The notes under the pieces are model-generated. The model did not search any database. It was not told the origin of the DNA and saw nothing but the letters and a program-made list of their open reading frames with translations. Below are positions 11,350-51,400 of a stretch of DNA of 56,300 bases, piece by piece. The translations under genes and the position numbers were made by a program. Position 1 is the stretch's first letter, and each line of letters opens with the position of its first letter. This DNA comes from a virus, in the IMG/VR virus record IMGVR_UViG_3300008740_000010, positions 1 through 56,300 of that record; one strand, 5' to 3'.

Positions 11350-11399
11350 CCCCCTATCCGTGGTTTTTGGCGTCCACGGGTAGGGGGTTTTTTGTTTTT
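11350..11399 (+). terminator. Rho-independent terminator after gp32
   Basis: CCCCCTATCCGTGG (11350-11363) pairs with CCACGGGTAGGGGG (11374-11387) over 14 positions with one U-G wobble and a 10-base loop, then TTTTTTGTTTTT. It separates the plus-strand gp32 unit from the convergent tape-measure gene, whose stop codon lies in the T-run. There is no T-run on the other strand, so it should work in the plus direction only. Between 11229 and 11349 there are weaker inverted repeats (ATTAGCC/GGCTAAT, 11273-11298) and no gene. Confidence 0.9.
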
Positions 11400-13380
11400 A
11401 GAGATTGGATGGTTGTGTCAATGATGGGTCGGTGTTCATGTCAATGGGTATTGGAATTGCTTGCCCCCCGGTGGATGTTGAACTATTATCTTGTGGTGCG
11501 TTAATGGTTACTGGCCCTGCTTCTCCTGCTCCTGCACCCTTTTCAATTCCGGCAGTTTGTACTGCTGTTGCGGCTGCTGCACGAGAATCTGGGGCTGGTT
11601 GTATTTCGGTGCTACTTCGTCGGAGTTTTGATGATTGTCCCGCTGCCGTTGGCGGCCTATTCAACCCGGTAGGCTCATCAAAATCAAGCATTGCTGATGC
11701 ATCGTCAGAAGACATTATCTCCATTAATTCGCCTGTTGCTTTATCGCCTTTTTTCATTCCTATAATTTTTTCAATCTGATATTCGGCCATTCCCATTGCT
11801 TTCAGTTCATCATAACCATAACCAAAACTTTTAAGTTCATCTGCTCCATATTCTGAAGCTATATGCTTTACTGCATCATCCGTGTAGCCTCTTTTTATCT
11901 TTTCCCCACCGCCTATAGATCCTTTACCTTCTGGATCTTGCCATTGTTCCCGAGAGGCGCTGTCGGAATCTCCCAGCATTGCTGCGGCTTCTGCTTGGCG
12001 GCCTGTGTCAACTTCTTCGTCTCCACCAAAAAAATAGTCCATTAATTTTCCGCCGCCGGGAATTGCTGAGATAACATCTATAGCAAAGTCTTTGACTAAG
12101 GATGGGAGATTCATTAGAGAATCAAAAAGACTGCCAAGCCATCCAGTAATGGTATCTGCCATAGTTCTCCATATACCTGCAATATCAAATTCAAAACTAT
12201 CAAGCGCAGCCGCTTCTTCATCAAGACCAACTGCACTCAATATCCACGACACAGCATCTTTAAGCATATTCAAGGGAACATCAATTAAACCATGAATCAT
12301 TGATTCAAATCCACCTTTAATTCCTTCAACAATAGAACCAGTTTCTTTGTACTCATCTATAAATCCAGTGACAAAATCAAAGATAGCAAAAAGAGCAGTA
12401 ACCGGAAAAAATAATTTCTTGAAAATATTCAGGAAGAATTTTCCACCTGTTTTAATCCAAGGTAATGCACTTTTTACTAATCTGGGGAGTGCCTTTGCCA
12501 TAGTCATTAGACCAGTAAACACTGAACCCAATATACCAAAAAGGGATGTCATCCATTTTCCTTTGAAAAACTTTGTAATACCACCGAACATTTTACCCAA
12601 AGCACCGCCGCCTTCTTCATCATCTTCCTCCGACATAGGAACGCCACCTGGCTCTGCCTTGACTACTCTTCCTGATTCTCGTCTTTCTTCAATTGCGCTC
12701 AATCTATCAGCAGCACTTTGTGCCATTGTTTCTTCGTGCATTATTCTTTCCATTGCTGCCTGATCGACCCATACCCCAAGAAGTTCTGTATTCAGGTTGA
12801 TCAAACCCTCAGTATCAATTGCAATGTGTGACAATAAATCTTTAATTACACCAGTATCAAATAACAAATCATCAAATATACTAGTCTGCTGAGAAATTTC
12901 TACTCCTGCTCCTTCTTCTTTTGATACTTTTATTTCTTCTGAAGCACCTTCGCCTCCTTCCCCCTCTTCTCCCTCTTCGCCTCCTTCTCCACCTCCCGTC
13001 ATCTTCCCCCAAAGATTCTTTACACCAGAAACTGCACTTCTGCCAGCGTCCATTGTCATGCCAGCAATCATATTCATGAGTGCATTGTTATCAAAACCAG
13101 TTGCAACCATACTTTCAGGATCTAATCCGGCTTCTTGCACTCTTCCGGCAACAGCCGACCCGGCAGCTTGAATTTTTCCGCCAACAGCCGTTGCTCCTTT
13201 TTGTGCAAGTGTTCCTGCTGCCTTAATATCTGCGGCAGCACCTTCGGCAATACCTTTTCCGACTTTTGTGGTAAGCCCAGCAATTCCCTTTGCAAAATCT
13301 GCCAGAGGATTTACGACAGCATTTGTCTGTTCGTCTGTGATTGGTGTTGGTGCTTGTGGATGAATTATTGGTGCTGACAT
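11398..13380 (-). CDS. Tape-measure-like tail protein (660 aa)
   Basis: The gene lies directly downstream of gp26/gp51 on the minus strand. The protein begins with an Ala/Gly-rich helical region (KGIAEGAAADIKAAGTLAQK), then an acidic Gly/Glu linker (residues about 128-150), a long helix (residues about 205-240), two or three hydrophobic segments (SLFGILGSVFTGLMTMAKAL and FFPVTALFAIFDFVTGFI, residues about 280-345), and a low-complexity C-terminus. Hydrophobic patches and helical repeats after frameshifted chaperone genes are the hallmark of tail tape measures; the T4 equivalent is gp29. Direct similarity to T4 gp29 is not evident to me, so the call rests on composition and position. Confidence 0.7.
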   Translation of the reverse strand: MSAPIIHPQAPTPITDEQTNAVVNPLADFAKGIAGLTTKVGKGIAEGAAADIKAAGTLAQKGATAVGGKIQAAGSAVAGRVQEAGLDPESMVATGFDNNALMNMIAGMTMDAGRSAVSGVKNLWGKMTGGGEGGEEGEEGEGGEGASEEIKVSKEEGAGVEISQQTSIFDDLLFDTGVIKDLLSHIAIDTEGLINLNTELLGVWVDQAAMERIMHEETMAQSAADRLSAIEERRESGRVVKAEPGGVPMSEEDDEEGGGALGKMFGGITKFFKGKWMTSLFGILGSVFTGLMTMAKALPRLVKSALPWIKTGGKFFLNIFKKLFFPVTALFAIFDFVTGFIDEYKETGSIVEGIKGGFESMIHGLIDVPLNMLKDAVSWILSAVGLDEEAAALDSFEFDIAGIWRTMADTITGWLGSLFDSLMNLPSLVKDFAIDVISAIPGGGKLMDYFFGGDEEVDTGRQAEAAAMLGDSDSASREQWQDPEGKGSIGGGEKIKRGYTDDAVKHIASEYGADELKSFGYGYDELKAMGMAEYQIEKIIGMKKGDKATGELMEIMSSDDASAMLDFDEPTGLNRPPTAAGQSSKLRRSSTEIQPAPDSRAAAATAVQTAGIEKGAGAGEAGPVTINAPQDNSSTSTGGQAIPIPIDMNTDPSLTQPSNL

Positions 13381-13382
13381 TT

Positions 13383-13550
13383 TTACTTATTCCTATTCCT
13401 TTCTTCCATCTTTTGTTTTTCTTTCTCTACATGGTCAATAACCAATGCCACATATAAATCTCTTTCCCAAGGAATCATCCCTTCAATATCTGCAAGGGTA
13501 TAATTATGATACTGCATAAGTGAAAAATTTATTCGTATAGTTCCCTCCAA
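13383..13550 (-). CDS. 51: Baseplate hub assembly protein gp51-like, possibly made by -1 frameshift from gp26
   Basis: The product (LEGTIRINFSLMQYHNYTLA ... MIPWERDLYVALVIDHVEKE) matches the short gp51 proteins of marine T4-like phages ('hhhYsl.dIE.MIPWERDvYv..l'). It is too short for most gene callers. The coordinates start at a TTG (13550); an internal ATG lies at 13517. Neither has a good ribosome site close by. The same frame is open back to 13574, inside the last codons of gp26, and begins at a TTTTTTC slippery heptamer, so the natural product may be a gp26-gp51 fusion. The C-terminal helix is basic and charged (KEKQKMEERNRNK). Confidence 0.75.
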   Translation of the reverse strand: MEGTIRINFSLMQYHNYTLADIEGMIPWERDLYVALVIDHVEKEKQKMEERNRNK

Positions 13551-13567
13551 CGAGTGGTCGGAGAGAA

Positions 13568-14293
13568 TTAGCCGAAAAAACTTGCCAATCCCTCCAACTT
13601 AATTTCTTCAATGTGACCACAGCTTCCGCATTTGAACTCTATATCCTTGTACATCTTTGGAATCGTAATAAAGAAGTGTTCTATCTTCTTGAATTGATCC
13701 GGGGTTAGTCTTTCAAGAAATTCTTGCAATTCGTCTGGTGTGTGGTCTGTGTTGTTATACACGTTTTCTTCATCATAAATTTGATCAATACATTTTGCAA
13801 TAAGATCAAACGCAACAACGGAGTGTGTTCCTCCTGATAGGTCAGATATTTTTGTCATCATGTCTATGTCGGGATATGACATAACAATTCCAACAGAATT
13901 TGTGAGTTGGATTTTGGGATCATGTGTCGGATCTTTTTTAATTTTAATTGTATTTACATCAATTTCAATTTCAGTTGGTTTGCATTTTTTCTCGTCATCA
14001 TTTTTATGAATATAGTTGGTTTTTATGGTATCTCCCATTGATTTTCCGCGCAAATTCAGCAAGATATACTCAATGTCAAATAACGGAAGTTTATCTACAT
14101 CTATATTTTTTGTGAGAATGCAATTATTGACAATCTGTTTAATTGAAGTTGTAATTTCTTTATTATCCTCTCCTTCCATTGCCATCAAAAGAATTTTTTC
14201 CTCTTTTACAAGAAAAGGTCTGTATGAAATTTTCTTATTGTTTGACGGCAACTTCAATTCATAAATCGGCACATCAAGTTTCGGTAAAGCCAT
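13568..14293 (-). CDS. 26: Baseplate hub/tail assembly protein gp26
   Basis: The N-terminus MALPKLDVPIYELKLPSNNK, then ISYRPFLVKEEKILLMAMEG, is the recognisable beginning of T4-like gp26 proteins. The 241-residue product ends with a CGSC pair (FKCGSCGHIEEI) preceded by DQFKKIEHFFITIPKMYKDI. In T4 gp26 is needed for hub assembly. Together with gp51 it occupies the position of tail assembly chaperones, between tube-type proteins and the tape measure. It ends in the candidate frameshift site. The upstream spacer (14294-14312) holds AAGGAGATA as ribosome site. Confidence 0.9.
   Translation of the reverse strand: MALPKLDVPIYELKLPSNNKKISYRPFLVKEEKILLMAMEGEDNKEITTSIKQIVNNCILTKNIDVDKLPLFDIEYILLNLRGKSMGDTIKTNYIHKNDDEKKCKPTEIEIDVNTIKIKKDPTHDPKIQLTNSVGIVMSYPDIDMMTKISDLSGGTHSVVAFDLIAKCIDQIYDEENVYNNTDHTPDELQEFLERLTPDQFKKIEHFFITIPKMYKDIEFKCGSCGHIEEIKLEGLASFFG
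13574..13580 (-). other. Candidate -1 ribosomal slippery site (TTTTTTC)
   Basis: On the minus strand gp26 ends AGT TTT TTC GGC TAA. The heptamer T-TTT-TTC fits the X-XXY-YYZ rule for -1 slippage in phase with the gp26 frame. After slippage the ribosome reads TTT TTT CGG CTA ATT..., which is open through the complete gp51 frame to TAA at 13385-13383. The placement two codons before the stop parallels tail assembly chaperone pairs such as lambda G/GT. Confidence 0.65.
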
Positions 14294-29950: not shown

Positions 29951-32900
29951 ATGCCTATCGACTTTAATAGATATCCGTATTATGACGACTTTACAGAAAG
30001 TAATTTGTATTATCGGTTGTTGTTTCAGCCAGGACGAGCAGTACAGGCGAGAGAATTAACTCAAATACAATCACTTCTTCAAAGTCAAATTGAAAAATTA
30101 GGGCAACATATTTTTAAGGATGGGGCACTAGTATACGGTGGAAAAATTAATTATGATAAAACCAATACCAAGTGGTTAGCCGTCAAGGCTCAAGACAGAA
30201 ATGGAAATCCTGTTAGAATTCGTGATATATCTCCTGGGATGATTATAAGAAAAGTAACTGATTCTAAGTCAACAGATAATGAATTTCAAGGTACAATTCT
30301 TTCAGTTATTCCTGCCGAGGGTAATGACCCCAATACTATTTACTTTAAGTGGACTTCAAATTCTCCTGAAACTGAGGAAACCGAAGGATTTCTTGGAAGT
30401 GAAATTTTACAAATATGTGATGCCGTAAAGGGCGTTGAACGATATACAGTTACTACTTTAGATCCAGATACTAATGGAAGATCTATTCATTATGGGACTT
30501 GTTCGACCATAAGTGTTGAACCCGGAATATATTTTTGGAAAGGTCTTTTTGTTAATTCTCCTGGCGGAAGTATAAAGCTAGACAAATATTCTGATATAAC
30601 AACATATCGTGTTGGGTATGTTGTGTCTGAACGAATTGATACAGAAGACCCACGAAGTCTTGATCCATCACAGCATACATCAAATTATTCTGCTCCAGGC
30701 GCAGACAGATATAAAGTAAGTTTAGACCTGACTAAAATTGGTAATGGTCTTACTATGGATGAAAGAATTGTTCCTGATTTTATTGAAGTCGCAAGAATTG
30801 ATGTTGGAAATTTATTAACTTCTGAAAATGGTCTTGGTCGCGACATATATGCTATTCTTGGTGATAGATTAGCACAAAGAACATATGATGAAAGTGGAAA
30901 TTATATTGTTGATGGATTTGATATAAAACTTACGAACAGAACCACAGCAGATAATCCAAAGCTGGTTGCAAAAATGTCAAAGGGTGTGGCATATGTTCGT
31001 GGATATAGACATACGTTAAATTATGGAAATATTGTTGGTGGGCCTGATGGAATAGACAAGGGAAGAGATGTACTGCAAGAGGATATGAATATATTAAATC
31101 GTTATGGTGATAATTTTCTTGCAGTTTATGACGAAGCAAATACTGTTTCCACACACCCAGAAAATGCAAATGGCATGTTTGTTGTTGGTTCTGGCGCAGG
31201 GCAATATACTTCAAATTCATGGTATGGAAATCGTGGAGAAGCAGTTTCAGTTCATTGTGTTCCACAACAATTGGTCAAAGATTATTCACTCGCTGATCAA
31301 TGGAAATGGGAATCTACTTTGGTCGGAACTGCTCGACCAATTCAAATGTGTTATGATATCACACGGACTAAGGCATCAATAGATGCAGGAAGAACTGGAA
31401 TGGTCTATGACCTTTGGCTTGGTGATTTCAAGAGTTCTCCAATTTCAAACACAACATCTGTCACAAACATTATTGCTGATGTGTCTGCATATGCAAATTC
31501 CACGTTTACGGTTTTTCATTTTGATTCACAAACGCATGGAATTACAGCAAACGATAGAATCAGCACATCCGGCGCAATTGCTTCTGATTGGAATGCTGAT
31601 TTTCTTCCAATACATTCAACAAACTCAACCGCAGTTATTATTGGTGGAGTAGTGACAAGTGTTGCTTCTCCTTCCTCCAGAGCACTTACTCTATATCGAA
31701 CAACAGGAAATACCAGCCCATACAAATCAATCGTTCTTGATACAGATTCTTCTGCTGCATGGAATGGTTCTTATATTGGAGCAACCATTAAGGTTGGTAA
31801 TTCGACACCACACAAAATTATTGATTATATTGGGACAAGTTCTTCTGCCGAAACCAAATATAATACCAGATATGGTTTTTCAAAGAGAGGCATGGCAATA
31901 CTTGATACTGCACTCGAAGAACTTCCAAAGTATGGAGATGCCTATACGTTAAATTTGAATATGAAACAGGCCAGGTCTGTTGTTTATAATCAAAACAAAT
32001 CGTCAACGGGCGCCGAACAATATCCTGCGATTTTAAATCAGGCATGGAACGTTGATCCAATTAGTGGAGTTACTGGTGGAGATAGGGGGTTATTGGTTGA
32101 CGAAGTATATGGCGGAAGAATTGATGGTGATGCCATCTATAATAGGCACGGAGAATCTGCTGATGGTGAAGATGCGCTTTTGTTTTCAACAGAAAGGTCT
32201 GCCGCAAAATCCTTATTGACACATGGGTCACTAGATGGAGGCTTGACCAGTAATACAGAAATTATTTATACTGAATATTCTTCTGTTCTTTGTGGGTCTA
32301 CTGGCGTTGGCCAAGTTTTTACTACTCCTGTTAGCGGTAACTATAAGTTCTTTGGTCGTCCAAAAATTTATCCATACGATTCAGGTTCTAGTACGGTATC
32401 CAATATAAACCAAATTAAAGAAAATTTCGCTCTGGTCAACAAGACCACAGGAAAGGTTTTGACGAGTGCCATAACTCAAATTGTTGTTGTAAATGGCACT
32501 TCGCCTACTCTTACAGTAACACTTCCGGCTGCTGTTCAGTTTACAGCAGGGCAAGAGTATGTTTTGAATTTTCCTGTCAAAGCCGAATTTGCAGAACCTG
32601 CCTACAAGAAATTAATAAAGGCAAATACTACGCATTCACTAGTTTCTACTTCTATACCGGCTGATGGTGTTTTGACAGATTATGACAATGGGCATGTTCA
32701 TATTGCAGAAGGAGATTATGCAAATACTTCTGGCACCAGAATTTCTCTTCGTAAACCAGATGGATTTAAGTTGCATAAGGTTGTTCATCAATTTAAAAAT
32801 AATCAGGCAAATACTGACATTGCAAATTCAATGTTGAATGTTATTGATAGATTTGATTTTGATACAGGACAACGAGACATGTTCTATGATAATGCTTCTA

Positions 32901-35900
32901 TTATCCTGAAACCTGAAGTAGATACTCCTACCGGAAATCTTATGATTATTTTTGATCGTTTTATGCGAATGGATAATCCAAAGGGAGAGTCGCCATCAGA
33001 AAATATAGATTCCCCTGGTTATTTTTCTGTTGATTCGTATCAATATACAACAGATCTGACGCTTGATCATTCGCCTAGTCAGGCTGCATTTACTCCGGGT
33101 ATGAATGTGGTAGGAAACACTTCGGGTGTTTCTGCATATGTCATGGATTATGCCAACACGAGCGGAAGTGGTGCATATGCAAAGATGAGAGTACAAGATG
33201 TTGCTGCGCCTTCTGGCGTAACCCCTTCCTTTATTGTTGGCGAGACAATTGATGGCTTTAACAAAGGGACTGGCGCATTAATTTCTGGTAAAATCGTGTC
33301 AATTGTTGAAGCCGATTTGAAGTATAGTGAAATTCCTGACTACAAGAGTCGTGGCAAAGTTGTATATCCGCTTCGCAATAAACTTGATTTCCGTGCCTAT
33401 GTATCTTCAAATGGTAGAGTGAGCGATACGATTTCAGATTCAATTATGCCGCCAATTCCAACTCGTTCGAGCATCAATGCAGGAAGAATTTCGGAAATTC
33501 TTTCTGGGCCAGCAAGTACCCCAATGACCACAAGCATTAAATTGGATCATTTTGCCGGAAGAATTGATAAAGTGGTGTTGACGGATTCTGGTACTTATAC
33601 TACCATCAGGGGAAATCCGGCAGTTACTCCATTTCCGCCAAGGGATGACCAAGATGATAAGGCATTGACCTTGTTTACTTTGCAAATACCTCCGTATACA
33701 TTTGATCCCAAGCATGTGCAAATAAAAGAAAATACTGCACGACGACACACAATGAAAGATATTGGTCGGCTTGCAAAGAGAGTAGAAAACCTAGAATATT
33801 ATGTTTCGTTGAATGCCTTGGAAAAGGCTGCCACTGATTTGGATATTACATTTGCCGATGGAACTTCAAGATTTAAGAATGGAATTGTTGTTGATAACTT
33901 TGCTGGATTTGGTGTCGCAGATATGGAAAATCTTAAAGCTTCTTTGGGCAAGGGAGTTCTTCGTCCACCTGTAAAAACATATGATGATTATGATGCTCCA
34001 GGGAGCATTCCATTGCTTTCATATGCAGTTGATGATAATTCAGATCTTAATCGAGGCACAAGAAGATATTATACTGTAGACGGAGATCTTGATGGAATTG
34101 GAGATGTAATTACATTGGACTTTACAGAAATGCCTTTAATTACTCAGCCCGTTGCCACAACAGCAGAAAGCGTCAATCCATTTGACCTTCAAAATTTTAC
34201 AGGAGAAATAATATTGACTCCTGATTTTGATAGATGGATGGATGTTGAAAAAATTCCTGAATATAATTCATTTTTGAATGGTGTTCTTGATAATATTGCA
34301 GGCGTGGATGAAAATTCCACAGCCACCGAAATTTCAGATGCCATAAAGAGCATGGATGATTTTTGGTCAGATATTATGGGAACCAATAAACTTGGTGAAA
34401 ATATTGAAGGTACAGTTTTTTATAATCCAGATGAAGACTTAAACACACAAACATATGCAAAGAATATTGAATTGGGCAGTGTCCGAGATCAATATTTGAA
34501 TACTGCCACGATTGATGCCGCAATTGCTCAACATGGATTAACAGATGGATCAACTCAAAATATTAAAATTCTTCCTTACCTACGATCAAGAGATGTTATT
34601 GTTCATGGCGAAGGCCTAAAACCAAATCATCGTAATGCCATTCGATTTGATGGTATTAGTGTTGAATCATATTTTGGTCAAGCAAATAAGATTTTTATGG
34701 TATACAATCCTTTGACTGACACCAAGTTTCAGCCGAGCGTGGATGGCAGATATGAAAAAATTAAATTAGAAGGTTCGGGTGCCGTTGCAAATGCTGTTCT
34801 TATTTCAGTAAGAGAACCATACTATCGGGATTCGCAGACAGAAGGGACAAATAGAATTATGGTAGGATATATTGTTCCTGAATTTGATGCAGAAACCGGA
34901 AAGGTTGATTATACCAATCGTGTTGATGGATATTATGGAACTGGATGGGATGCCACTAAAATTGCATCGGGTGGGTTCCAGGGATATTCTGCCAGAACAA
35001 TTACAGGATATAATACTGGAGCCACGGCAAGCTTAACGGTCGGAGGAACCCAACACCTATATAATGGGCATTATACAGGAAGTGTACGAAATTCTACAGG
35101 AAATACAACTCACATTGAATTGTCACCTGATGCTCGTAGATATATTGATGGGAATTTTAGAAAAGAGTCTACGGGCGCTGCAACTTCTTCTATGATTAAT
35201 TTTACTGGTATCCCTTTGAATTCCAGAATACAAATTGTTTCTGGTGCCGGGGCTGGCCAAGAATGTATAGCAAATGGTCTGATATATACAACTTCTGGTG
35301 GTTCTCCGGTTCTTGAATTAAAAGCCTCTGCTGCCGGAAGCACTGGATTGACACAAAATATTGATTCGACTAGTGTATATACCATTGGAATGAAACAAGT
35401 CAATCCAACAGTTCATGATTATGGAGTCACACAAATTGCAGACATTACTTCAAAAACAAATCATTATGGAGAAAAGATTGGTGTGCTTCATATTCCATCT
35501 ACTTCAAAGGTATCATTTACTGCTGGAAGAAAGCTTGTAGAAATTATGGACAGGTTCAGTAAGGAAGAATGGCTGGTCAGTAGTTATGCTTCTGCATATT
35601 ATTTTGCCGAAGGAACTGAACGAGAAGAAGTTGAAGCAGCACATGTGAGATTAGACCTTTTGAAAGAAATTAGAAGTAAAATGAATTTGTTTAGAATTAG
35701 TGACCACCCAGAAGATCTCGGATATGTTCCTGCCAGTAATTTGATTGATGGAGCAGAAGGAAAATTGGCAGTTTGTTATGGAATTGAAGTTGCAAATGGA
35801 ACATGGACGGCAAAAGCAACACATGATATTGACTATATTGAAGGTGGTGGTGAATTTGGAACAATTAATGACACAGACCAAGAAAGATTGAATACTACAT

Positions 35901-36004
35901 TGACAGGAGTTTGGGCACTCATCAGGGATCAATATCCAAGTATTTATGCAAAATACTTTGAGAGATGGGGTGCTCTACATGAAGAAGAAGTTGCGGCTGG
36001 ATAA
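29951..36004 (+). CDS. DUF4815-type large tail structural protein (2017 aa)
   Basis: It opens with the DUF4815 signature: YYDDFTESNLYYRLLFQPGR, then AVQARELTQIQSLLQSQIEK, LGQHIFKDGALVYGG. Later family landmarks are present: DFDTGQRDMFYDNASIILKP (about residue 970), GRLAKRVENLEYYVSLNALE (about 1270), LPYLRSRDVIVHGEGLKPNH (about 1540), and STSKVSFTAGRKLVEIMDRF near 1850. Members in cyanophages are virion proteins linked to the baseplate periphery. Residues about 330-1000 and 1650-1800 are beta-rich, Thr/Ser/Asn-rich inserts. The C-terminal segment usual for the family ('DPlAQTF...') is missing here and appears in the next gene. Stop overlaps an ATAAATA word. Confidence 0.85.
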   Translation: MPIDFNRYPYYDDFTESNLYYRLLFQPGRAVQARELTQIQSLLQSQIEKLGQHIFKDGALVYGGKINYDKTNTKWLAVKAQDRNGNPVRIRDISPGMIIRKVTDSKSTDNEFQGTILSVIPAEGNDPNTIYFKWTSNSPETEETEGFLGSEILQICDAVKGVERYTVTTLDPDTNGRSIHYGTCSTISVEPGIYFWKGLFVNSPGGSIKLDKYSDITTYRVGYVVSERIDTEDPRSLDPSQHTSNYSAPGADRYKVSLDLTKIGNGLTMDERIVPDFIEVARIDVGNLLTSENGLGRDIYAILGDRLAQRTYDESGNYIVDGFDIKLTNRTTADNPKLVAKMSKGVAYVRGYRHTLNYGNIVGGPDGIDKGRDVLQEDMNILNRYGDNFLAVYDEANTVSTHPENANGMFVVGSGAGQYTSNSWYGNRGEAVSVHCVPQQLVKDYSLADQWKWESTLVGTARPIQMCYDITRTKASIDAGRTGMVYDLWLGDFKSSPISNTTSVTNIIADVSAYANSTFTVFHFDSQTHGITANDRISTSGAIASDWNADFLPIHSTNSTAVIIGGVVTSVASPSSRALTLYRTTGNTSPYKSIVLDTDSSAAWNGSYIGATIKVGNSTPHKIIDYIGTSSSAETKYNTRYGFSKRGMAILDTALEELPKYGDAYTLNLNMKQARSVVYNQNKSSTGAEQYPAILNQAWNVDPISGVTGGDRGLLVDEVYGGRIDGDAIYNRHGESADGEDALLFSTERSAAKSLLTHGSLDGGLTSNTEIIYTEYSSVLCGSTGVGQVFTTPVSGNYKFFGRPKIYPYDSGSSTVSNINQIKENFALVNKTTGKVLTSAITQIVVVNGTSPTLTVTLPAAVQFTAGQEYVLNFPVKAEFAEPAYKKLIKANTTHSLVSTSIPADGVLTDYDNGHVHIAEGDYANTSGTRISLRKPDGFKLHKVVHQFKNNQANTDIANSMLNVIDRFDFDTGQRDMFYDNASIILKPEVDTPTGNLMIIFDRFMRMDNPKGESPSENIDSPGYFSVDSYQYTTDLTLDHSPSQAAFTPGMNVVGNTSGVSAYVMDYANTSGSGAYAKMRVQDVAAPSGVTPSFIVGETIDGFNKGTGALISGKIVSIVEADLKYSEIPDYKSRGKVVYPLRNKLDFRAYVSSNGRVSDTISDSIMPPIPTRSSINAGRISEILSGPASTPMTTSIKLDHFAGRIDKVVLTDSGTYTTIRGNPAVTPFPPRDDQDDKALTLFTLQIPPYTFDPKHVQIKENTARRHTMKDIGRLAKRVENLEYYVSLNALEKAATDLDITFADGTSRFKNGIVVDNFAGFGVADMENLKASLGKGVLRPPVKTYDDYDAPGSIPLLSYAVDDNSDLNRGTRRYYTVDGDLDGIGDVITLDFTEMPLITQPVATTAESVNPFDLQNFTGEIILTPDFDRWMDVEKIPEYNSFLNGVLDNIAGVDENSTATEISDAIKSMDDFWSDIMGTNKLGENIEGTVFYNPDEDLNTQTYAKNIELGSVRDQYLNTATIDAAIAQHGLTDGSTQNIKILPYLRSRDVIVHGEGLKPNHRNAIRFDGISVESYFGQANKIFMVYNPLTDTKFQPSVDGRYEKIKLEGSGAVANAVLISVREPYYRDSQTEGTNRIMVGYIVPEFDAETGKVDYTNRVDGYYGTGWDATKIASGGFQGYSARTITGYNTGATASLTVGGTQHLYNGHYTGSVRNSTGNTTHIELSPDARRYIDGNFRKESTGAATSSMINFTGIPLNSRIQIVSGAGAGQECIANGLIYTTSGGSPVLELKASAAGSTGLTQNIDSTSVYTIGMKQVNPTVHDYGVTQIADITSKTNHYGEKIGVLHIPSTSKVSFTAGRKLVEIMDRFSKEEWLVSSYASAYYFAEGTEREEVEAAHVRLDLLKEIRSKMNLFRISDHPEDLGYVPASNLIDGAEGKLAVCYGIEVANGTWTAKATHDIDYIEGGGEFGTINDTDQERLNTTLTGVWALIRDQYPSIYAKYFERWGALHEEEVAAG

Positions 36005-39458: not shown

Positions 39459-42400
39459 ATGCCCAAGTTTGAATCACCAATAAAAATTAGTTCTATTAAA
39501 AGCCTATCCGGCAACACAACACTCCTTCATCTTGGTGATGACAACCGAGTTGGTGTTCTTACAGATGCGCCCGAATCCGAATTACATGTTGATGGCACAA
39601 TTACTGCAACAGGTCTTGTTGTTCCTCCTTCAATTATTTCTGCTCAGGGAGATTCTGCTACCACTTTTGGTTTTAATCCAAATTTTACTGAGTGGAATGG
39701 GCCTCCAGACAATAGCCCCAATGTTGCAAATGGATACTCACAAACAGGTGGTGGAGTAGTTCAACGATCATCAATATCAAATCTTGGTGGTTTCTCTGCA
39801 AGATTTCATGATAATGGTGATGTCGTATGGTCAAGAGAAGTACCATTTCAATCGCCGCTATATGCCAATGTATTTATCCAAGGCACATTTACTTATAAAT
39901 TTGATGGTTGGTCTTCTGGCGAACCAGGCCTTGCGGTTACATTAACTTCAAGACCAAAGGCATGTACTGATTACACGTCAATGACAAATACATTTATTGT
40001 TCCTACATTTTCAGAAAATCGCTCTACTGCAAAGGATTGGCAAACAGGAACTTTTCGAGCACATACTCCCGGCAATCGCGAAATAACACATCTTAAAATT
40101 GAAATTATTTCTACTTCTGCAACTACTTATGATTCAGCTACAGTTGGGGTCAATAATGACGGGGGAGCAGGCAATTCAACTATACTTGGCAATGAAGATA
40201 ACATAATAGATTATGATTGGTATGTGGATGGATTTGATTTCTCGTTCATGCACCCAGACATGCGAGTTGATCAACAAGGGAGAATAACTGGCGCACATAT
40301 TGCTGCTGCAACAATTGATGATCTTCACATCAGGGATATGATTTCGTCTACTTCTTCTTTGATTAAAAACGATGCTGGTTTATCTGTTCAGGGACTAGTT
40401 GCAAATACCACTCATGCAGATGGTTGGAGTATTGCCAAATCTGGAGAGATCAAGGCAACAGACATTAAAATATATGGACATGACGGAACAGTTCTTATTT
40501 CTGGTAGAGGAGATACAGACGGAAAGCCCAATCCATTTGCAGAATGGCGGGCAGCCGAAGATCCTGCAAACAGACCATCACTTTCCGATTTAGATCCTGC
40601 CGCATCAACATATCTTTATGGTCTTGCATTTGAAGAGAGCAATAAGACTTCGTTGTTGGCAAACATTAGTTATCTTGCCACAAGCGGTCTTGATTCTGAT
40701 ACGTTTTCTGCAAATGACCATTCAATACATTTTGCGAATGTTGTCTCTGGTGCCGCAGGCGCAGATGGAACTGACCTTGCAAATGGTTTCATTACATTCA
40801 ATGGAATTACCACCAATGCTCCCCCTGGTTCTATCTATACATCAACAGATGCCACAATTATCAGAAACCAAGATGCATATATTTTGTTTCTTGCAAACAC
40901 CCAAAAATGGGACACAAACATTGGTGCCCAACAAAAATATCATGCCAATACATTGCTCGGCGAGTTTGGGCTTTATGTATTGGCAACGCCGACTGTTGGT
41001 GGTTGGTTGTATCATCCACATGGAAACTCAACATGGTATACAATTGATTCCACACAGTCTGGAAATGACCTTCACGAAAATGACTTTTTGGTCATTGGTA
41101 GAATTGGAACAGATCCTACCGGAAAGATTCGTGCAGACAAAACATATCTACAACCACCAAAAAATCCAGACTCAATTACAATTCCAGAAAGAACAGGAAC
41201 ATTTGCTCCAATTGGAATTACGGCAGGCGGTGTTCTCTTTGCAGACATTCATTTAAATCAATGGAACCATACTGCAAATGCTGGCGAAATACAATTTACA
41301 AATCGAAGAAATAGTCCAAACACAAGATTTGCCTTTATTCATCCCGGCACAGACGACCCGGCAGACAGCATAATATATACAACCAATGGTGCCTATGGTG
41401 TTCTGACAAGTCTCGAAGATTTCCCTGGTTCTCGATATATTACTTTTATTGGAGCAGATCAGAGTAGATTTACATTACAGACCGGGCACTCTCCTGATTT
41501 TGTTGCAGCATTTCCTATTGGAGATAAGTGGTTTTATAATCAGGACGAAGGAAAGTTTGCCGAGTTTACTCCAGATGGCCGTGACTGTATTGTTGCGCGG
41601 GTTGATTCAAATGGGTCTGCTGTTTCTGCATTTCCTTCAGACTCGTCCGCACTTACAAATATCTACAGGTATGCAGAACGAGAAACAATAACTGCCGAAG
41701 GCGCAACACTTTCTGAGTTGATTATTGATCCGCCCAGAGGAATGGCATCTGGTGGATTGGTTTTTGCTGAATTGACAGTCAATAAAGAATTCAAACAATC
41801 TGATGATACTTTTGTTTCTAATGCTGGTTTTATTGCCATTACAAATTCAATAAACGATCCAAAAAATGAATTTTATGTAATTCATCCGACCAATGGAAAC
41901 AATTGGTTGGTAGATACTGTTGGTCGTGGTGTTGTCACAAGCCTGAAACCAACTGTTAATGCATATGGAACAAGACACATTGCGTTTGTTGGAACAGACA
42001 CAACAAGATTTGCTTTGCCATCAGATGCATATGAAAATGTATCAAATTCTTTTGTTGCAGTTCTTGAAAATGATTCTCAAGGACACCCAAGAGCAGATGG
42101 AAAATGGTATTATGATAATGGAGCCAATGTGTCAAGCACATTTACGCCTGATGCAAATGACTTTATTATTGCAACGATTAATTCATTTGACCCTGACTCT
42201 GATGGAATTGACCAAATTACTCAATGGTCAGCACCAGAGGGGCAAATTATTGTTGATGGCGTTACAACAACCATTACAAGTCTTCGGAATTTATTAAATT
42301 CAAGAATTGATTCCACAAACGCAGCCGTAACTTTTGCCATAGATTCTGCTGCCAATGCATATGCAAATGCTGTTACTGCACAAGGTACTGCTGCTGATGC

Positions 42401-45400
42401 ATCTGCAAATGCTGCACAGGCATTGGGGTTGCTAGATGGTGCCATCACAGTTTACTTTGAAGAAGAAGGTGGTCATTTTGTAAATGCAGTAGGAACTGGT
42501 GGATATGGTTATAATGATCTTTGGATTAATGTCAGCCCGTACAATGAATTTATTGATGGTTCTTGGTCTTCAAATGCAATCTTTAGATATGCAAATACTT
42601 TTGGTGGATTTGATTCTCCTTTGGTATGGATGCATGACAGCGAAAACCTACAAGGACGAGCATATCTTGCAAGTCTTACTGCAAGGCAGTTTGCAGACCG
42701 GGCAACAACAATTTATTATATGGATAGAATTAATTCTTCTGCTCCATTTTATGGGCCAAACGTTGCAATACTTACAGTGTCCGGTCCAGATTTGGCAGCC
42801 GGAAAGATAAGACTCAATACTAATCCAGAAGGCGATTTTTGGTATGATACGACCGACGATGCTATTGAATTCAATCGTCCTTATGTTTATAAAACGAACA
42901 CTTCTTTCAGTACCAGTAATGCATATGGTCTTTCTCTTCAGCCTCCGGTTTCTGGATATGCAAATGGAATTGGAACAACAGGAGAATGGTCGCAGACTGC
43001 TTATATTGATGCCGATTTTAATCCTGCTTTATCTCCAACTGGATGGTATGACATAAGAGACACCGCAATTTCGACAGCGACTGATCAGGCTGCAAGAGAC
43101 AGTGCAGCAAATGCATTGGCACAGGCAGCAAATGCACAGTTTGCTGCCGACAGACAAATTCTTGCATTCTTTCAGGTTGAATCAGATGTTCCGACTGCAA
43201 CCGGAAATGGCGATGTTTGGATTCATACAGACAATGCAATCAAAACAGATGGAACCAAAAACACTGGTGCAATTTTTGTTGCGAACACAAAACCTTCTGG
43301 TTCATATAATGCCGGTGTTGACCCAACAGGATTTCAAAATTACTGGTATGAGGCACCAAACAATGCCATCGGGCTTATGTATTTACATAGTTATTCGGCG
43401 GGTGTCTCTGGAGAATTTGAACACGGCACAAACATCATGCCGAGAGGGTATTCTCTCTTTGATGCCCCTGCGAGTGATTATGAATTTTCTACCCCCTCGG
43501 TGCCGAATACCAGAGAAACTGAAGCTCCGTACTTCTTCGGGCAGGCCCCCGCCAACGCGGGTGCGGGGAAAGGTTTTGCTAATTTATATATTGATTCTTC
43601 TGGTTATGTGGGAAGTAATAGTCTTTTTGTTCGTGGAGTGGATTCTTCTTGGCATCGCGCAGGTTCCATTTTATCTCTTGGAGATGTAGATCCAAGCACA
43701 TGGCTGTCCGATTTAAATACCTTTGGAATTGATATTCCAAAAGGAAAGAAATGGATATTTTCGTGGCATTGGAAAACTTCTAATTTATATGTGTCAAGTG
43801 ATGCCGATGTTGCCAACAGGACTGCAAATCTTGGTGTAGGTTTTCGTGTTGGCAATAGTACACATGCGGGAAGTTGGGTAGAAGCATCGAGTGATATGTG
43901 GGGTTCTATAAATCCACAAAAAAATCCAAAAGAAAAAGATGTTTGGCAGCGGGATTATCATGTTTTAGATTTTACTTCCCCCGACTCCTATGATGATCCT
44001 GGTGATGGCGAGGGCATCATTCCAGCTAATGAAATTACCAAAATACATCCAGTATTCGTTTTAAAGCGAGTAGATATTGCGGGCGATCCAAATTGGCTTG
44101 TAAATCGTGAACAACATTATAATATTGACGCAGTTCAATTAGAAGAAGTTCCAAATACAGTATTCACTCCATCACAATTCAAAGAACCCTCAGATGATTC
44201 TGCAATTGTATTTGGCAGAGAAATAACAGACGGGAAGATTGTCACACATTATTATGATTCGGGAACTTCTGGTTACGGACCAGTTCCAAATACAACGCCA
44301 ACCGGATATCCAAACCCACAGCCACATGGAGATTTCTGGGTAGATACCGGCAACAATAATATTATTTTCCGATATCATCAACAAAATCCTCTCAATGGTG
44401 TAATTCCTTCTGCCCAAACAATTCATTGGACAGCAGAAACAAATGGAGATGGATGGTATACCACAGAAGATTTGAGAACCGGCAATGCACTCTCGACTTC
44501 TTATGATGCCCTGGCCAATGCAGCAACGGCACAGGCTGCTGCGGACAGAGAAATCGTTGCGTTCTTCCAGACTGATGTTCCAGAAGCAACTGGTAATGGT
44601 GATGTTTGGATTGACACAGATAGTTTTGCAACACTGAATACGAGTTCAATATATGTTGCATTCAGCAAAGGGGCAACAGCAACAGCAGCTAGTCCTGCTC
44701 CCGACAAATGGTATCCATCACCAACAAGTGCAATCGGTCAAGTATACCTCAATGCCTATCTTGCAGAACGAAAGGCATCACGAAACGAATCGTTTGTTCT
44801 TGGCGTGACCGGGAGTGGTGATCTTCCGTTCCCTGTATATCCTGATGCCAATGGTATCTATGTTGGTGCAACAGGAAATCTTGCTTTCTACAAAAATAGT
44901 AAAACAGAATATCTTATAGACCAGCCCACCACCGATGATCAAGGTCGAATTTTTGTTTCTAATCGTGGGGGCATTGACCTTGTTGGGCCAAATGGAAAAA
45001 TCTGGTATCCGTATAGTAATGATTTTAGTATTCCAGAAGAGGGAGTTGTAGAGACAAAATATAGGGTTGGAAATCCCGGTTGGGTAACAGATTCTAATAC
45101 ATCATTCTCTTCACTACACTTGATGTATACCAATATGAATGCGTCGGCACGATTTGCCGGAAGCTCAATTCCAAATTTTGGAAAACATGATCATATCATT
45201 CCTGTTCGCTGGAATAATGTTGATGGTCAACGTCAATGGGAAGCAGTAGTCTTTACAAGCGGAACATTCATTGATTTCATACCTGATGCTGCAAACGGCG
45301 ACTTCCTTGTTGCAAAACTCACAAGACCAACTGAGGTTCCTGAAGGATTTGCAACACTCGATTCCTGGGTATTTAAAACTCTTCCAGTTCAGACACAAGC

Positions 45401-48400
45401 CATCAGTGATGGAAAGATTGTCACACATTTTGGGCCCCATTCTCCACCAGATACAGGAACCCACGGACCACAGGCAAATCTGACACCAACAGGTCTGGCC
45501 AACCCAGAACCTCATGGTGATTTCTGGATCAATACATCAAACAACAATCTTGTTTTCCGTTATCATTCCAACACATTAAACAAATCTGCACAGACGGCAT
45601 ATCATGCTCCACTCAAACCAGAAACAAATGCAGACAAGGCAGGATGGTATTCCACAGAAGATCCAAGGGCCCAGACGGCATATGCAACTTCATACCAAGC
45701 TCTTGCTGATGCCGCTTCGGCATTGGCAAATGCCGCAACAGCACAGGCAGCAGCCGACCGCGAGATTCTTGCATTCTTTGCCGATGAAGCAGACAATCCA
45801 ACTACAACAACAGGAAATGGAGATATTTGGATTGTAACAGATCATCTAGTAATCCCAGGAACCAGTGTTGCAAACACAAGATCAATTCGTGTTGCAAATA
45901 CATTAGGTGGTGGCCCTGCCGCTGGTGGTAGTGGGACTAGATTCTGGCACGAAGCACCAAACAATGCGATTGGTCTTAACTATCTTAAAAATTATGCAAC
46001 AGGATATGACCTTAGAAAAATTACTGATGGAAAGATTGTTACTCATTTTTATGACACAGAACAATCTGGGCCATGGACTCACGGACCCCAGGCAAATGTG
46101 ACTCCAACAGGACTGTTGAACCCAGAACCTCATGGGGATTTCTTGATTGACACTGGTAATAATAATATCATGTATCGGTATCATCAGAAGATTCCAAGTG
46201 CAAGAGCATTTGATGCCTCAGATTCCACATTTGCACAGACATTAAACTTTTTTACTCCAACATCAACTTCAGGTGATGGTTGGTATTCAATTGTCGATCC
46301 AAGAATTGCAAACAACGAACAGTATGCATCGAATACCCAAGTATGGTTGGCAAACACGGATGCATGGGCCAGAACCATTCAAGCCGATTTGCATCCGGGT
46401 GGTAATACATTTCTCTATATAAATTTTGCTCTTGCCAATGCACACTATGCAAACGGGGTTGCCTATAATGCAAACGCTGCTGCATATCTTGCACAAGCCG
46501 CTGCCGACAGAGAGATATTGGCATTCTTTACTTTGTCAACCGACACTGTTCCTGTTGCAACAGGAAATGGTGATGTCTGGATTCACACTGATACACTAAT
46601 TAAATTGTCTGATGGTACGCTGAATACGAGTGCAATCTTTGTTGCCAATACAAAGACTGGTGGTGACTATGATGATGGTAATCATCGTTGGTGGAAATCA
46701 CCAAACAATGCCATTGGATTGATGTATGCAAGAAGCTATGCTGCCGGTATTGGTGGACAATTTGCAACTGGATCAAATTGGTGGCCCAGAGGATACTCTA
46801 CATTTGATGCTCCTGCCTCTGACTATTCTAATACAACTACTACCATAGGCGAAGTTGCATATCCGTTTAGGCGACCAAATGTTGATGTAGATATTGTTGT
46901 TGATGGAACATCTCCTGTTGGCGGAAACGATAAAGTTCTTCGTTTGAAGAAAACAGTAGATTCCGCACATGTTGATTGGTCGTCACAATCTGAAGACAAT
47001 TATCATAATGACCCAACAGTTATAATTCCAAAAGGAAAGAAATGGATATTTTCTTGGTATGCTCGTATTGATACTCTTTATTCTGGAAATAAATTATATT
47101 CTGGGTTCTTTGTTCAACCTGCAAATTCTTCTGGATTTGGTAATCCAATATATTCAACATACATTGGCGAAAATGATGCTCGTGGAGATTCATTAAGACC
47201 ATTTACTACAACAGATTGGGAACGCCATTGGATTAATATTGACCTTACAGATGCAGCAAATACTCTTAATTCTCATTCTGATGGAACTAGACATTGGTAT
47301 CGTGAATCTGGTGTAGAATGGGATGAGATGAATAACATTTATGCAAATACAGTAGATCGGTTTATTCTTCGTGTTGATCCCGGCGGGTGGAATGGCACAA
47401 ATCCATCTTCTGATGGATATGGAAGTGGAGATATTGTCGGTAATACTGTCTACTATACTGGCTTTCAATTAGAAGAAGTTCCGGCTGATAGAAATTTACC
47501 AACTGATTTCAAAGAACCCTCTGATGACAAAGCAATCGTCTTCGGAAGAACAATCACAGACGGCAAGGTTGTCACACAATTTTATGACACCAGCCAATCT
47601 AATTATACTCATGGTCCGGTTGCAAACGTAACTCCAACAGGATATCCTAATCCAGAACCACATGGCGACATGTTTGTCGATACCGGCAACAACAATGTCA
47701 TGTATCGTTATCACCAAAAGATACCAAGCGCACGGGCGTTTGATGCTGATAATTCTACGTTTGCACAGACATTAAACTTTTTTGCTCCAATAGCAGGTTC
47801 TTCTGAGGATGGTTGGTATTCAATGGACGACCCGCGCATTGCCAATGCACAAATCTATACGAGCAATCTTCATGTATGGTTGGCAAATACTCATAATTGG
47901 GCATCAAGTCTTGAAGGCAATACAGTTAATAACCAAATTTGGACGAACTTTGCTCTTGCCAATGCATATTCGGCAAATGGTGTTGCCTATAATGCCAATG
48001 CAGCGGCATATCTTGCACAGGCAGCAGCCGACCGTGAGATTAATGCATTCTTTTCTCCTTATGCATCACCTGGCCCAAACGCAACAGGTAATGGTGATGT
48101 TTGGATTCATACAGATAATTTAATAAAATCTGATGGAACCTTAAATGCAGCAGCAATTCATGTTGCAAATACAATGAGTGGTGGAATAACTGATGGCGAT
48201 GAACATCGTTGGCATACATCTCCGTATAATGCCATTGGACTCATGTATGCAAGAAGTTATGCCAATGGTGTTGGGGGTTCATTTGACCGTGGAACCAACA
48301 TCATGCCTCGTGGGTACTCTTTGTTTGATCAACCAATTACTGATTACAAACCAAGGTCTGCCGATGAAGCACTTTCTTCAACTGATGAATCTCTTTCTCC

Positions 48401-51400
48401 TGGCGAACTTCCAATTAAGGAACCATATCCATTTTATTGGGAAAAAGCAGATGATGGCAGTGGAAATTTTGATTTAGCCAATGTTGCAATTGACCATACC
48501 GGAAATGGATATATTGGGGCAACCTCAAGTCTAAGAGTTACCAAGCAACGAACAAACGATGCTGGCGATGAATATATTGTATTTGGTGTGGATAATGCCC
48601 ATGGTTCTCAAGATAGGGCAGAAACGAATAATCCATATGCAATTAATATTCCAAAAGGAAAGAAATGGATCTTTTCTTATTATGTAAAGGCAAACACAGC
48701 CGATCAAACTACTACATATCCTAAGTTTTATATGGGCAACACAACTCATTATAATGCCGGGTGGATTAATATTTTTCCTGAAAAAGATATTATAACAGCA
48801 GATACATGGCAAAGAAACGAATGGGTTCTTGATCTTACTTCTGGTTCTACGGATTCACAAGGTGGAGAAACTGGATCTTCACCAAAAGCAGAAGTCACCA
48901 AACTCAATGTACTTCTTTTTTCAACTGCTAGTTCTTCTCAGGGTGTTGATTATTATTATGATGCAATTCAATTAGAAGAAGTTCCGGCTGATGTATTCAC
49001 TGCATCACAATTCAAAGAACCTTCTGACAGTTCTGCAATTGTCTTTGGAAGAACAATCACAGACGGAAAGATTGTTACTCATTATTTTACTGACGCATCT
49101 GGTGCAGGCAATGGTCCGATTCCAAATACGACTCCATTGGGTCTTCCAAACCCTGAGCCACACGGAGACTTCTGGGTTGACACCGGAAATAACTTTGTTA
49201 TGTTCCGGTATCATCATGAAGATACTGGATCAATTCCATTTGCTCAGACGGCAACCTTTGGATGTACTTCTCCATCGGCAGATGGTTGGTATGCAATGGA
49301 AGATCCAAGAACTTCCAATGCTCTTGTGACTGCACATGCTGCGAATGTTACTGCACAAGAAGCACTACAACGAGCAGTGACGGCAGCATCTGCTGCCGAT
49401 GCAGAGATTCTGGTATTCTTTGAACCGAGTACAAATGCAACAATGCGAGAAGATCCATATTCATATGGTTCTAATGTTGGGCCGGCAACAGGCAATGGTG
49501 ATATCTGGATTCAAATTGATCAAGTCTATGATGCAGATGGAAACCAAAATACCGGATCAATTTTCTTTGCAAATCTTTCTCCGGGCATAGGTTGGACACA
49601 ATCAACAGAGAGTGCAATCGGTCGATCATTCCTTGAGCAGTTTACTTCGGTGGGGGTAAAGAATTGGTTCCCATCTGGTTATTCGACATGGGATGAGCCT
49701 TCAAGTGATTATCTTATTTCTGATACTGATTCAGATTTTAATGCAGATACTCCATATCCACTTAGAGGATTAAATAAAGCAAACACGGTTGTTAATACAT
49801 CTTTTGGAAAAGTTAGTTCAGGTTCTCTTCAAGTTACAACAGGAGATGTAAATCAGACTTCATCTCTTGTTTATTTTGCAAATAATAGGGTTGGCTCGGC
49901 TTCTCTGAATAAAACTGTTTTCAAGGCTGGGCCTCCATCTATTACACATCAATTTCCAAAGGGAAAGAGATGGATTTACTCATATTATGCCTACACAAAT
50001 TCTCCAACTGCCTTTTTTGAGTATCCAGTTGTTTCCCAAAGTATAGTATTTGATGACACTGACGATCCTAATTCTAATCTAGTTAATTTTAAAACACATG
50101 AATATATTAGCAAGGGAGAAAATTACATAAACAAATGGCGACGTTTCTCTCATGTTTTTGATTTTTCTAATACACACATTCATGCCAACGCATCAAGTTA
50201 TACCGACAAATATCCCGGTACATCCAGGCCTAATCAATTTTTGGGAGATCCAACAAACAGACCACAAAGTAGAAATACAATTGGTTTGGATGGTTCTGCT
50301 CATACGGAAGATAATAGTCATCATGCACGATTAGCCAATTTAAATTCGGCATCAATTACTCTTTACATTTATGCAAATACTGGGTCAAATGGAGGTAATA
50401 CTGTATGGCTTGATGGATTCCAATGGGAAGAAGCACCCGGCGAACAAATGCTTCCCGGGCCATTCTCTGATCCTGACAGAAGACGGTCATCTCATTTTTC
50501 ACAGTCAATTGCAGATGGAAAGATTGTCACACATTACATGCCAGGGACAGGAACCAATCCTTATTATGGTCCGCGACCCCATGTTACTCCTTCTGGTGTA
50601 ACCAACCCAACACCACACGGAGACTTCTGGGTAGACACGGCAAACAACAATGCACTCTATCGTTTCAGTGCAAATAATTCATATGTGTTCAAGACTTCTG
50701 ATGTTGATGATGTTGCACACGGAGCGCAGACTGCATACTGGAGTACCGTTGGAGTAGAAAACAATAAGACGGGTTGGTATTCAATTCAAGATGGAAGAAT
50801 TGGTATTCTTACCACAAACGTTACGAGTGCCTTTGGTGATCTTGCGAGTCAACTCACAAGAATTGTTGAGATTGAAGCAACCACCGATGGCGAACTTCAA
50901 GTTTTCTTTGAACCCGAAGGTGGTAATTTTGGAAATGCAGTTAACACATATGTTGGTTCTTCTTATGGTGACATTTGGATTAATACTGATGAATATAATA
51001 AATTTGCAAACGGAACTTTAAGTTCTAATGCAATTTTCCGATGGCAAAATAGTGTTTCTGGTTTTGCTGAATATATTCTTGATTTAGAGTCTGGAACAAA
51101 TGCACCAAAGGGTCTTGCATGGAGACATTCACCAAATAGCGCAATCGGTCAGGTATACCTACAGACATATGCTGCACAAAATGCTGCCGACCAAAGAGTT
51201 ACTGCATACTTTATGGGTGGGTTTGGAACTGGAGCAGGATATAGAGGTCCGCAAACAAATACCACTCCAACTGGAAGATATAATGCAAATCCTGATGGCG
51301 ACATTTGGATAGATACATCAAACAACAATATAATGTATGTGTACAATTATGTTGATGGAGTACATTCAGTAGGATTTGCTCAGACTATTATTTACTCTCC

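Follow-up and report, generated by a model that had tools for sequence, protein, structure and literature searches.

The gp26 and gp51 reading frames of an uncultured T4-like phage are very probably one gene, in which a programmed −1 frameshift would yield both gp26 and a gp26-gp51 fusion. The phage is represented by a 56.3-kb IMG/VR virus record, which is called the window here. We put the probability at roughly 85% that gp26 and 'gp51' constitute a single −1-frameshifted gene giving a short product and a fusion that serve as a TAC-N/TAC-NC pair of tail assembly chaperones (TAC), with slippage stimulated by an internal Shine-Dalgarno (SD) sequence and a hairpin.

A heptamer T-TTT-TTC followed by GGC TAA had been noticed at the end of gp26, together with a −1 frame that stays open as far as the gp51 stop, and both are borne out by the sequence. 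On the minus strand the 3′ end of gp26 (14293..13568) reads GCA AGT TTT TTC GGC TAA; the codons AGT TTT TTC GGC TAA thus place T_TTT_TTC in the X_XXY_YYZ phase for −1 tandem slippage, with one sense codon (GGC) separating the heptamer from the stop. The −1 frame is open over 13598..13383, and from the slip site onwards it encodes an extension of 63 aa (RLILSDHSLEGTIRINFSLMQYHNYTLADIEGMIPWERDLYVALVIDHVEKEKQKMEERNRNK). The match of this extension to phrog_634 ('baseplate hub assembly catalyst') covers residues 2-62, including the residues before the ATG, and the C-terminal positions 236-277 of phrog_150 match it as well (E 7e-5). The start of gp26 itself is preceded by the SD sequence AAGGAG with a duplex energy of −9.3 kcal/mol. 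All features are listed in Table 1.

Table 1. Coordinates of the gp26/gp51 region in the window
Feature	Position	Strand	Evidence
Preceding gene, tail tube protein, 252 aa	14313..15071	−	phrog_45 'tail tube', E 4.6e-39
gp26 CDS, 0-frame short TAC-N-like product, 241 aa	13571..14293; stop 13570-13568	−	PF12322, E 1.4e-61; phrog_150 'baseplate hub', E 2e-68
Internal Shine-Dalgarno-like GGAGG, putative stimulator	13591..13595	−	Anti-SD duplex peak, 69 loci
Slippery heptamer T_TTT_TTC	13574..13580	−	Sequence; TTTTTT[C/T/G] in 96/96 scored loci
0-frame stop TAA of gp26	13568..13570	−	Sequence
−1-frame extension 'gp51', TAC-C-like, 63 aa post-slip	13386..13574; stop TAA 13385-13383	−	phrog_634, E 7e-22; pN/pS 0.23
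Downstream hairpin, putative stimulator	13541..13567	−	−15.1 kcal/mol; z −4.6 vs protein-preserving codon shuffles, z −4.2 vs dinucleotide shuffles
ATG, unsupported start of a separate gp51	13515..13517	−	No Shine-Dalgarno; replaced in 15/64 loci
Next gene, 660 aa, tape-measure-like by position and size	11398..13380	−	Weak phrog_27688 match, E 1.8e-7, unknown function

Scanning IMG/VR with gp26 yielded 80 loci, to which isolates were added afterwards. The IMG/VR loci with a complete junction show a −1 frame that is open across the gp26 stop and, shortly before that stop, a run of six or seven T. Retention of the heptamer and of the −1 phase in relatives had been set beforehand as a refutation test of the frameshift, and both are retained: for the heptamer, 96 junctions (69 non-redundant) were scored, and every one has TTTTTT[C/T/G] in slip phase and an open −1 extension, with TTTTTTC in 68 loci, TTTTTTT in 27 and TTTTTTG in one. 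These conserved junctions span marine, Straboviridae and Rhizobium-phage relatives. They are found in the cyanophages P-SSM2, S-T4, S-SM2 and P-SSM7, in Methylophilales phage Melnitz, in Aeromonas phage Aeh1 and Cronobacter S13 (Straboviridae) and in Delftia PhiW-14, and also in Stenotrophomonas Mendera, Sinorhizobium phiM19, Rhizobium RHph_I46 and Vibrio D479. Locus scans with T4 gp51, T4 gp26, Aeh1 gp26 and PhiW-14 gp26 as queries yielded few relatives. A sequencing error joining two frames was rejected because dozens of different contigs and isolates show the same layout, and the +1 frame was discarded as a possible extension, since in most loci it meets a stop after a few codons. Two distantly related phages were left out of the 96 loci, the Ackermannviridae phage phiA8-29 (L114, ~3244) and Vibrio D528 (L115, ~3175): both keep the −1 extension behind a poorer, CTTTTC-type site, and with this imperfect site the slip mechanism may differ in both lineages.

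Purifying selection on the linker from heptamer to ATG acts in the −1 frame alone, with pN/pS values of 0.23 in the −1 frame, 0.82 in frame 0 and 1.97 in the +1 frame (0.26, 0.72 and 1.87, respectively, inside the window clade). This bears on the annotation found in databases, where gp51 is listed as a separate gene in many cyanophages; such a gene would be initiated, independently or by coupling, at the ATG at 13517 or at one of the ATA codons at 13538 and 13532. The only ATG available for a gp51 of the annotated type would give a protein of 44 aa, and its anti-SD duplex amounts to 0.0 kcal/mol, compared with −3.2 to −9.3 kcal/mol for 20 other genes of the window. Among 64 aligned loci the ATG is present in 49 and replaced by ATT, ATA, GTT, GCT, CAC or AAA in the other 15. 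A ribosome site (≤ −4 kcal/mol) was found at none of the 49 ATGs, compared with 34 of 35 gp26 starts. The earlier remark that gp51 has no convincing ribosome site thus holds in the window as well as in its relatives, and the combination of a conserved ribosome site and start codon, which would have argued for a separate gp51, was not found in these loci. A GGAGGG (13549-13544) does sit 5′ of the two in-frame ATA codons, and T4 gene 26 is annotated with an internal product, 26′, which starts at AUU. However, GGAGGG pairs within an 11-bp hairpin and is followed by nothing but ATA codons as possible starts, and we rejected it as the gp51 ribosome site; it could be mistaken for one, and its place in the 3′ arm of the hairpin explains its presence. 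An independent start was rejected likewise, as there is no SD sequence, the ATG is unconserved and the coding signature runs upstream of it to the heptamer, whose conservation a separate gene would leave without explanation. Because the linker evolves in the −1 frame, 15 of 64 loci lack the ATG and ribosome sites are missing from all 49 that have it, we conclude that 'gp51' is not a separate gene here and regard separate initiation as very unlikely.

Two elements flanking the heptamer are candidate stimulators of the −1 frameshift. The first is the internal GGAGG, which ends 10 nt upstream of the heptamer. At this position the anti-SD duplex has a mean energy of about −6.6 kcal/mol over 69 loci, as compared to 2.0 to −2.8 kcal/mol elsewhere in the stretch that was scanned, the 2-nt steps flanking the peak excluded. 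The peak arises in part because Leu-Glu-Gly is encoded there. At the SD site the Glu codon is GAG rather than GAA at a ratio of 30:17, versus 277:846 elsewhere in gp26 (Fisher p 3.5e-8 for related sequences, uncorrected for kinship), and the Leu codon before it is also biased toward a G ending. The pattern suggests that GGAGG may stimulate slippage.

The second candidate is a hairpin that begins after a 6-nt spacer 3′ of the heptamer. It consists of a perfect 11-bp stem (13567-13557 / 13551-13541) and a loop (13556-13552), and its predicted energy was compared with two kinds of shuffled sequences (Table 1). The stem is paired in all seven members of the window clade (the window and L001-L006). 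Variation within this clade is limited to the heptamer's final base, the spacer and loop, and one stem pair (U-A, U-G or C-G); there is one compensatory pair, and with this single informative pair the covariation in the clade is not significant (133/500 shuffles). In P-SSM2 and L030 this place is occupied by another hairpin, also of 11 bp. A universal hairpin was rejected, the structure being strong in the window clade and in P-SSM2/L030 and absent or weak in many others. The mean z over 35 clusters is −0.86 (s.e. 0.32), which points to a downstream hairpin in some lineages rather than in all. In the window the hairpin probably stimulates slippage.

Frames joined at a run of six or seven T could also result from transcriptional slippage, as such a run is long enough for a polymerase to slip and 27 of the 96 loci do contain TTTTTTT. 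But in 68 of the 96 a C ends the run after six T, the phase is invariably the ribosomal X_XXY_YYZ one, and the internal SD peak and the hairpin fit stimulators of ribosomal slippage, so that we consider slippage of the polymerase extremely unlikely. Ribosomal frameshifting, as proposed in the preliminary description, is strongly supported by the comparison with relatives through the heptamer, its phase, coding in the −1 frame and the lack of initiation signals for gp51. In the mechanism that we propose, most ribosomes would end at the gp26 stop and release the short protein. A fraction would pause at U_UUU_UUC, held by the SD sequence 10 nt upstream and the hairpin 6 nt downstream, and would slip back by one base on two Phe tRNA pairings to produce a gp26-gp51 fusion of 304 aa. 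TAC-N and TAC-NC would then load the tail tube protein on the tape measure. That ribosomes slip, and how often they would do so, is inferred here.

This arrangement resembles the E. coli dnaX signal, which combines an internal SD sequence, the heptamer A_AAA_AAG and a downstream hairpin. As in dnaX, the internal SD sequence of the window lies ~10 nt upstream and the hairpin a few nt downstream of the heptamer. The two differ in the heptamer, which is U_UUU_UUC in the window, and in the outcome, as the shift would yield the longer protein in the window and yields the shorter one in dnaX. The role of the SD sequence is noted in PMC5600365.

The gp26/extension pair lies between the tail tube gene and the 660-aa tape-measure-like gene, and the neighbours of gp26 comprise tail tube, DNA end protector, head closure, SSB and baseplate wedge genes. 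The layout had been likened to that of lambda, P2 and Mu, where chaperone genes precede the tape-measure gene. The likeness holds for a short/long pair beside a tail tube gene and a long gene. The profile matches of that long gene do not prove it to be a tape measure; its counterpart in S-SM2 has weak tape-measure matches (E 1e-5 to 1e-4). With a threshold of at least 450 aa, a long ORF (451-1015 aa) directly follows the extension in 40 of the 56 loci with enough flank. Most of the remaining loci have an ORF of ~80-140 aa in its place (L034, L052, L056, L058, L062, L064, L067, L070, L086 and others). In Delftia PhiW-14 (L085, 4759-4938) the frameshifted gene is kept and no tape-measure-like gene comes directly after it; a terminator and a helicase gene are next.

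In fold comparisons with Foldseek, the HK97 TAC structure 2OB9 ranked first in the PDB for the gp26 model, at an E of 0.52, which is suggestive without being significant. The model of T4-type gp51 gave no significant match, and no TAC was among the 50 matches listed. A PDB sequence search with the gp26 profile returned no match, and thus none to a solved TAC structure, and a BFVD fold search returned relatives of gp26 only. From homology and the literature we infer that gp26 and the fusion act as the tail assembly chaperones TAC-N and TAC-NC. The two products might instead be true baseplate-hub parts made by the same slippage, in line with the historical T4 annotation of gp26 and gp51 as hub or hub-assembly proteins. 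This is unlikely given the lambda G/GT layout beside tail tube and tape-measure-like genes, the short/long pair in T4 and the TAC assignment published in 2022.

The chaperone assignment draws on homology with T4. There the two genes diverge, 26 lying on the minus and 51 on the plus strand, so that a 26-51 frameshift is impossible. T4 gp51 (249 aa) matches PF12322 (E 4e-52) and phrog_634, and it aligns with phrog_150 over its full length (positions 13-280, E 3e-84); the match of T4 gp26 (208 aa) ends at phrog_150 position 235. Moreover, T4-type gp51 aligns collinearly with gp26 plus the −1 extension across the slip site. From the extents of the profile matches and this collinear alignment, T4 gp26 is the counterpart of the short product, and that of the fusion is T4 gp51. 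The window gp26 and T4-type gp51, modelled with AlphaFold2 (pLDDT 88 and 91, respectively), share a similar order of elements, and the latter has three further helices beyond the fusion point. The preliminary description needs correcting on this point: the homology of T4 gp51 extends over the entire fusion rather than being limited to its small C-terminal portion, and the T4 genes are divergent. In T4 two separate genes thus encode what one gene of the window would make. Work by Vladimirov and co-workers reportedly names T4 genes 26 and 51, with frameshifting in other T4-like groups. The comparison shows a single pair of chaperones that is encoded either through recoding or as two paralogues, which makes it a clear case in which to ask why frameshifting would be given up.

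In the cyanophage and marine T4-like records examined, gp26 and gp51 are given as two proteins or gp51 is missing, and in the records of Aeh1 and Cronobacter S13 the interval that separates gp26 from the next gene is left blank. Both of the latter phages have a gp51-type extension in the −1 frame (Aeh1, L084, 4717-4884; Cronobacter S13, L112, 3208-3372) that is unannotated in public records. The gp26/gp51 record should be one frameshifted gene. The preliminary description expected a fusion to change the interpretation of the two proteins; one frameshifted gene is indeed the better reading, but TAC genes of T4-like phages, frameshifted in some groups and present as a short and a long gene in the T4 group, were already published in 2022 (cited in PMC12846349 and PMC10885494). 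The slip sequence of lambda, G_GGA_AAG, differs from the T_TTT_TTC of the window. A short product and a rare −1 long product, encoded ahead of the tape-measure gene, are made by lambda G/GT (mechanism reviewed in PMC5009743), HK97, P2 E/E′ and Mu; in the window the proposed pair precedes a gene that resembles a tape measure in position and size.

According to Atkins et al. (2016, PMC5009743), long-tailed phages 'except T4' widely conserve frameshifting of the G-T type. The TAC genes of T4-like phages were subsequently identified (Vladimirov, Gautam and Davidson 2022, Virology 566:9-15, PMID 34826709, as cited in PMC12846349 and PMC10885494); they are 26/51 homologs, as are the genes of the window. 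PMC12846349 cites poly-T −1 slip sequences for the TAC-N genes of T4-like phages, and PMC10885494 reports that some T4-like phages have one short and one longer fusion gene and no frameshifting. For Vandenendeviridae and Andersonviridae, which are different families, a −1 frameshift in the TAC gene with a GTTTTT motif has been argued, as for the window, from a conserved open −1 frame, and the section of that article consulted mentions neither an SD sequence nor a hairpin for them (PMC12846349). The gp26/gp51 frameshift is thus a deeply conserved but essentially known device, described for T4-like phages in 2022, and the SD sequence together with the hairpin may be the new part. They form a candidate regulatory signal that could set the ratio of short to long chaperone. 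A dnaX-like signal of three parts could yield far more of the long chaperone than in lambda (~1 long:30 short), and we tentatively entertain, as a rather doubtful extension, that marine T4-like phages do so and that T4 exchanged the signal for two genes derived from a short/long duplication.

Two further reading frames of the window lie on the plus strand. A single ORF of 5091 aa (39459-54734) is located near the window end; its residues 1-2514 have no Pfam match at E 0.001, and as a guess it might encode a giant phage protein with a structural or adhesive role. The other, an ORF of 2017 aa (29951-36004), has a strong match to DUF4815 (PF16075, E 8e-47).
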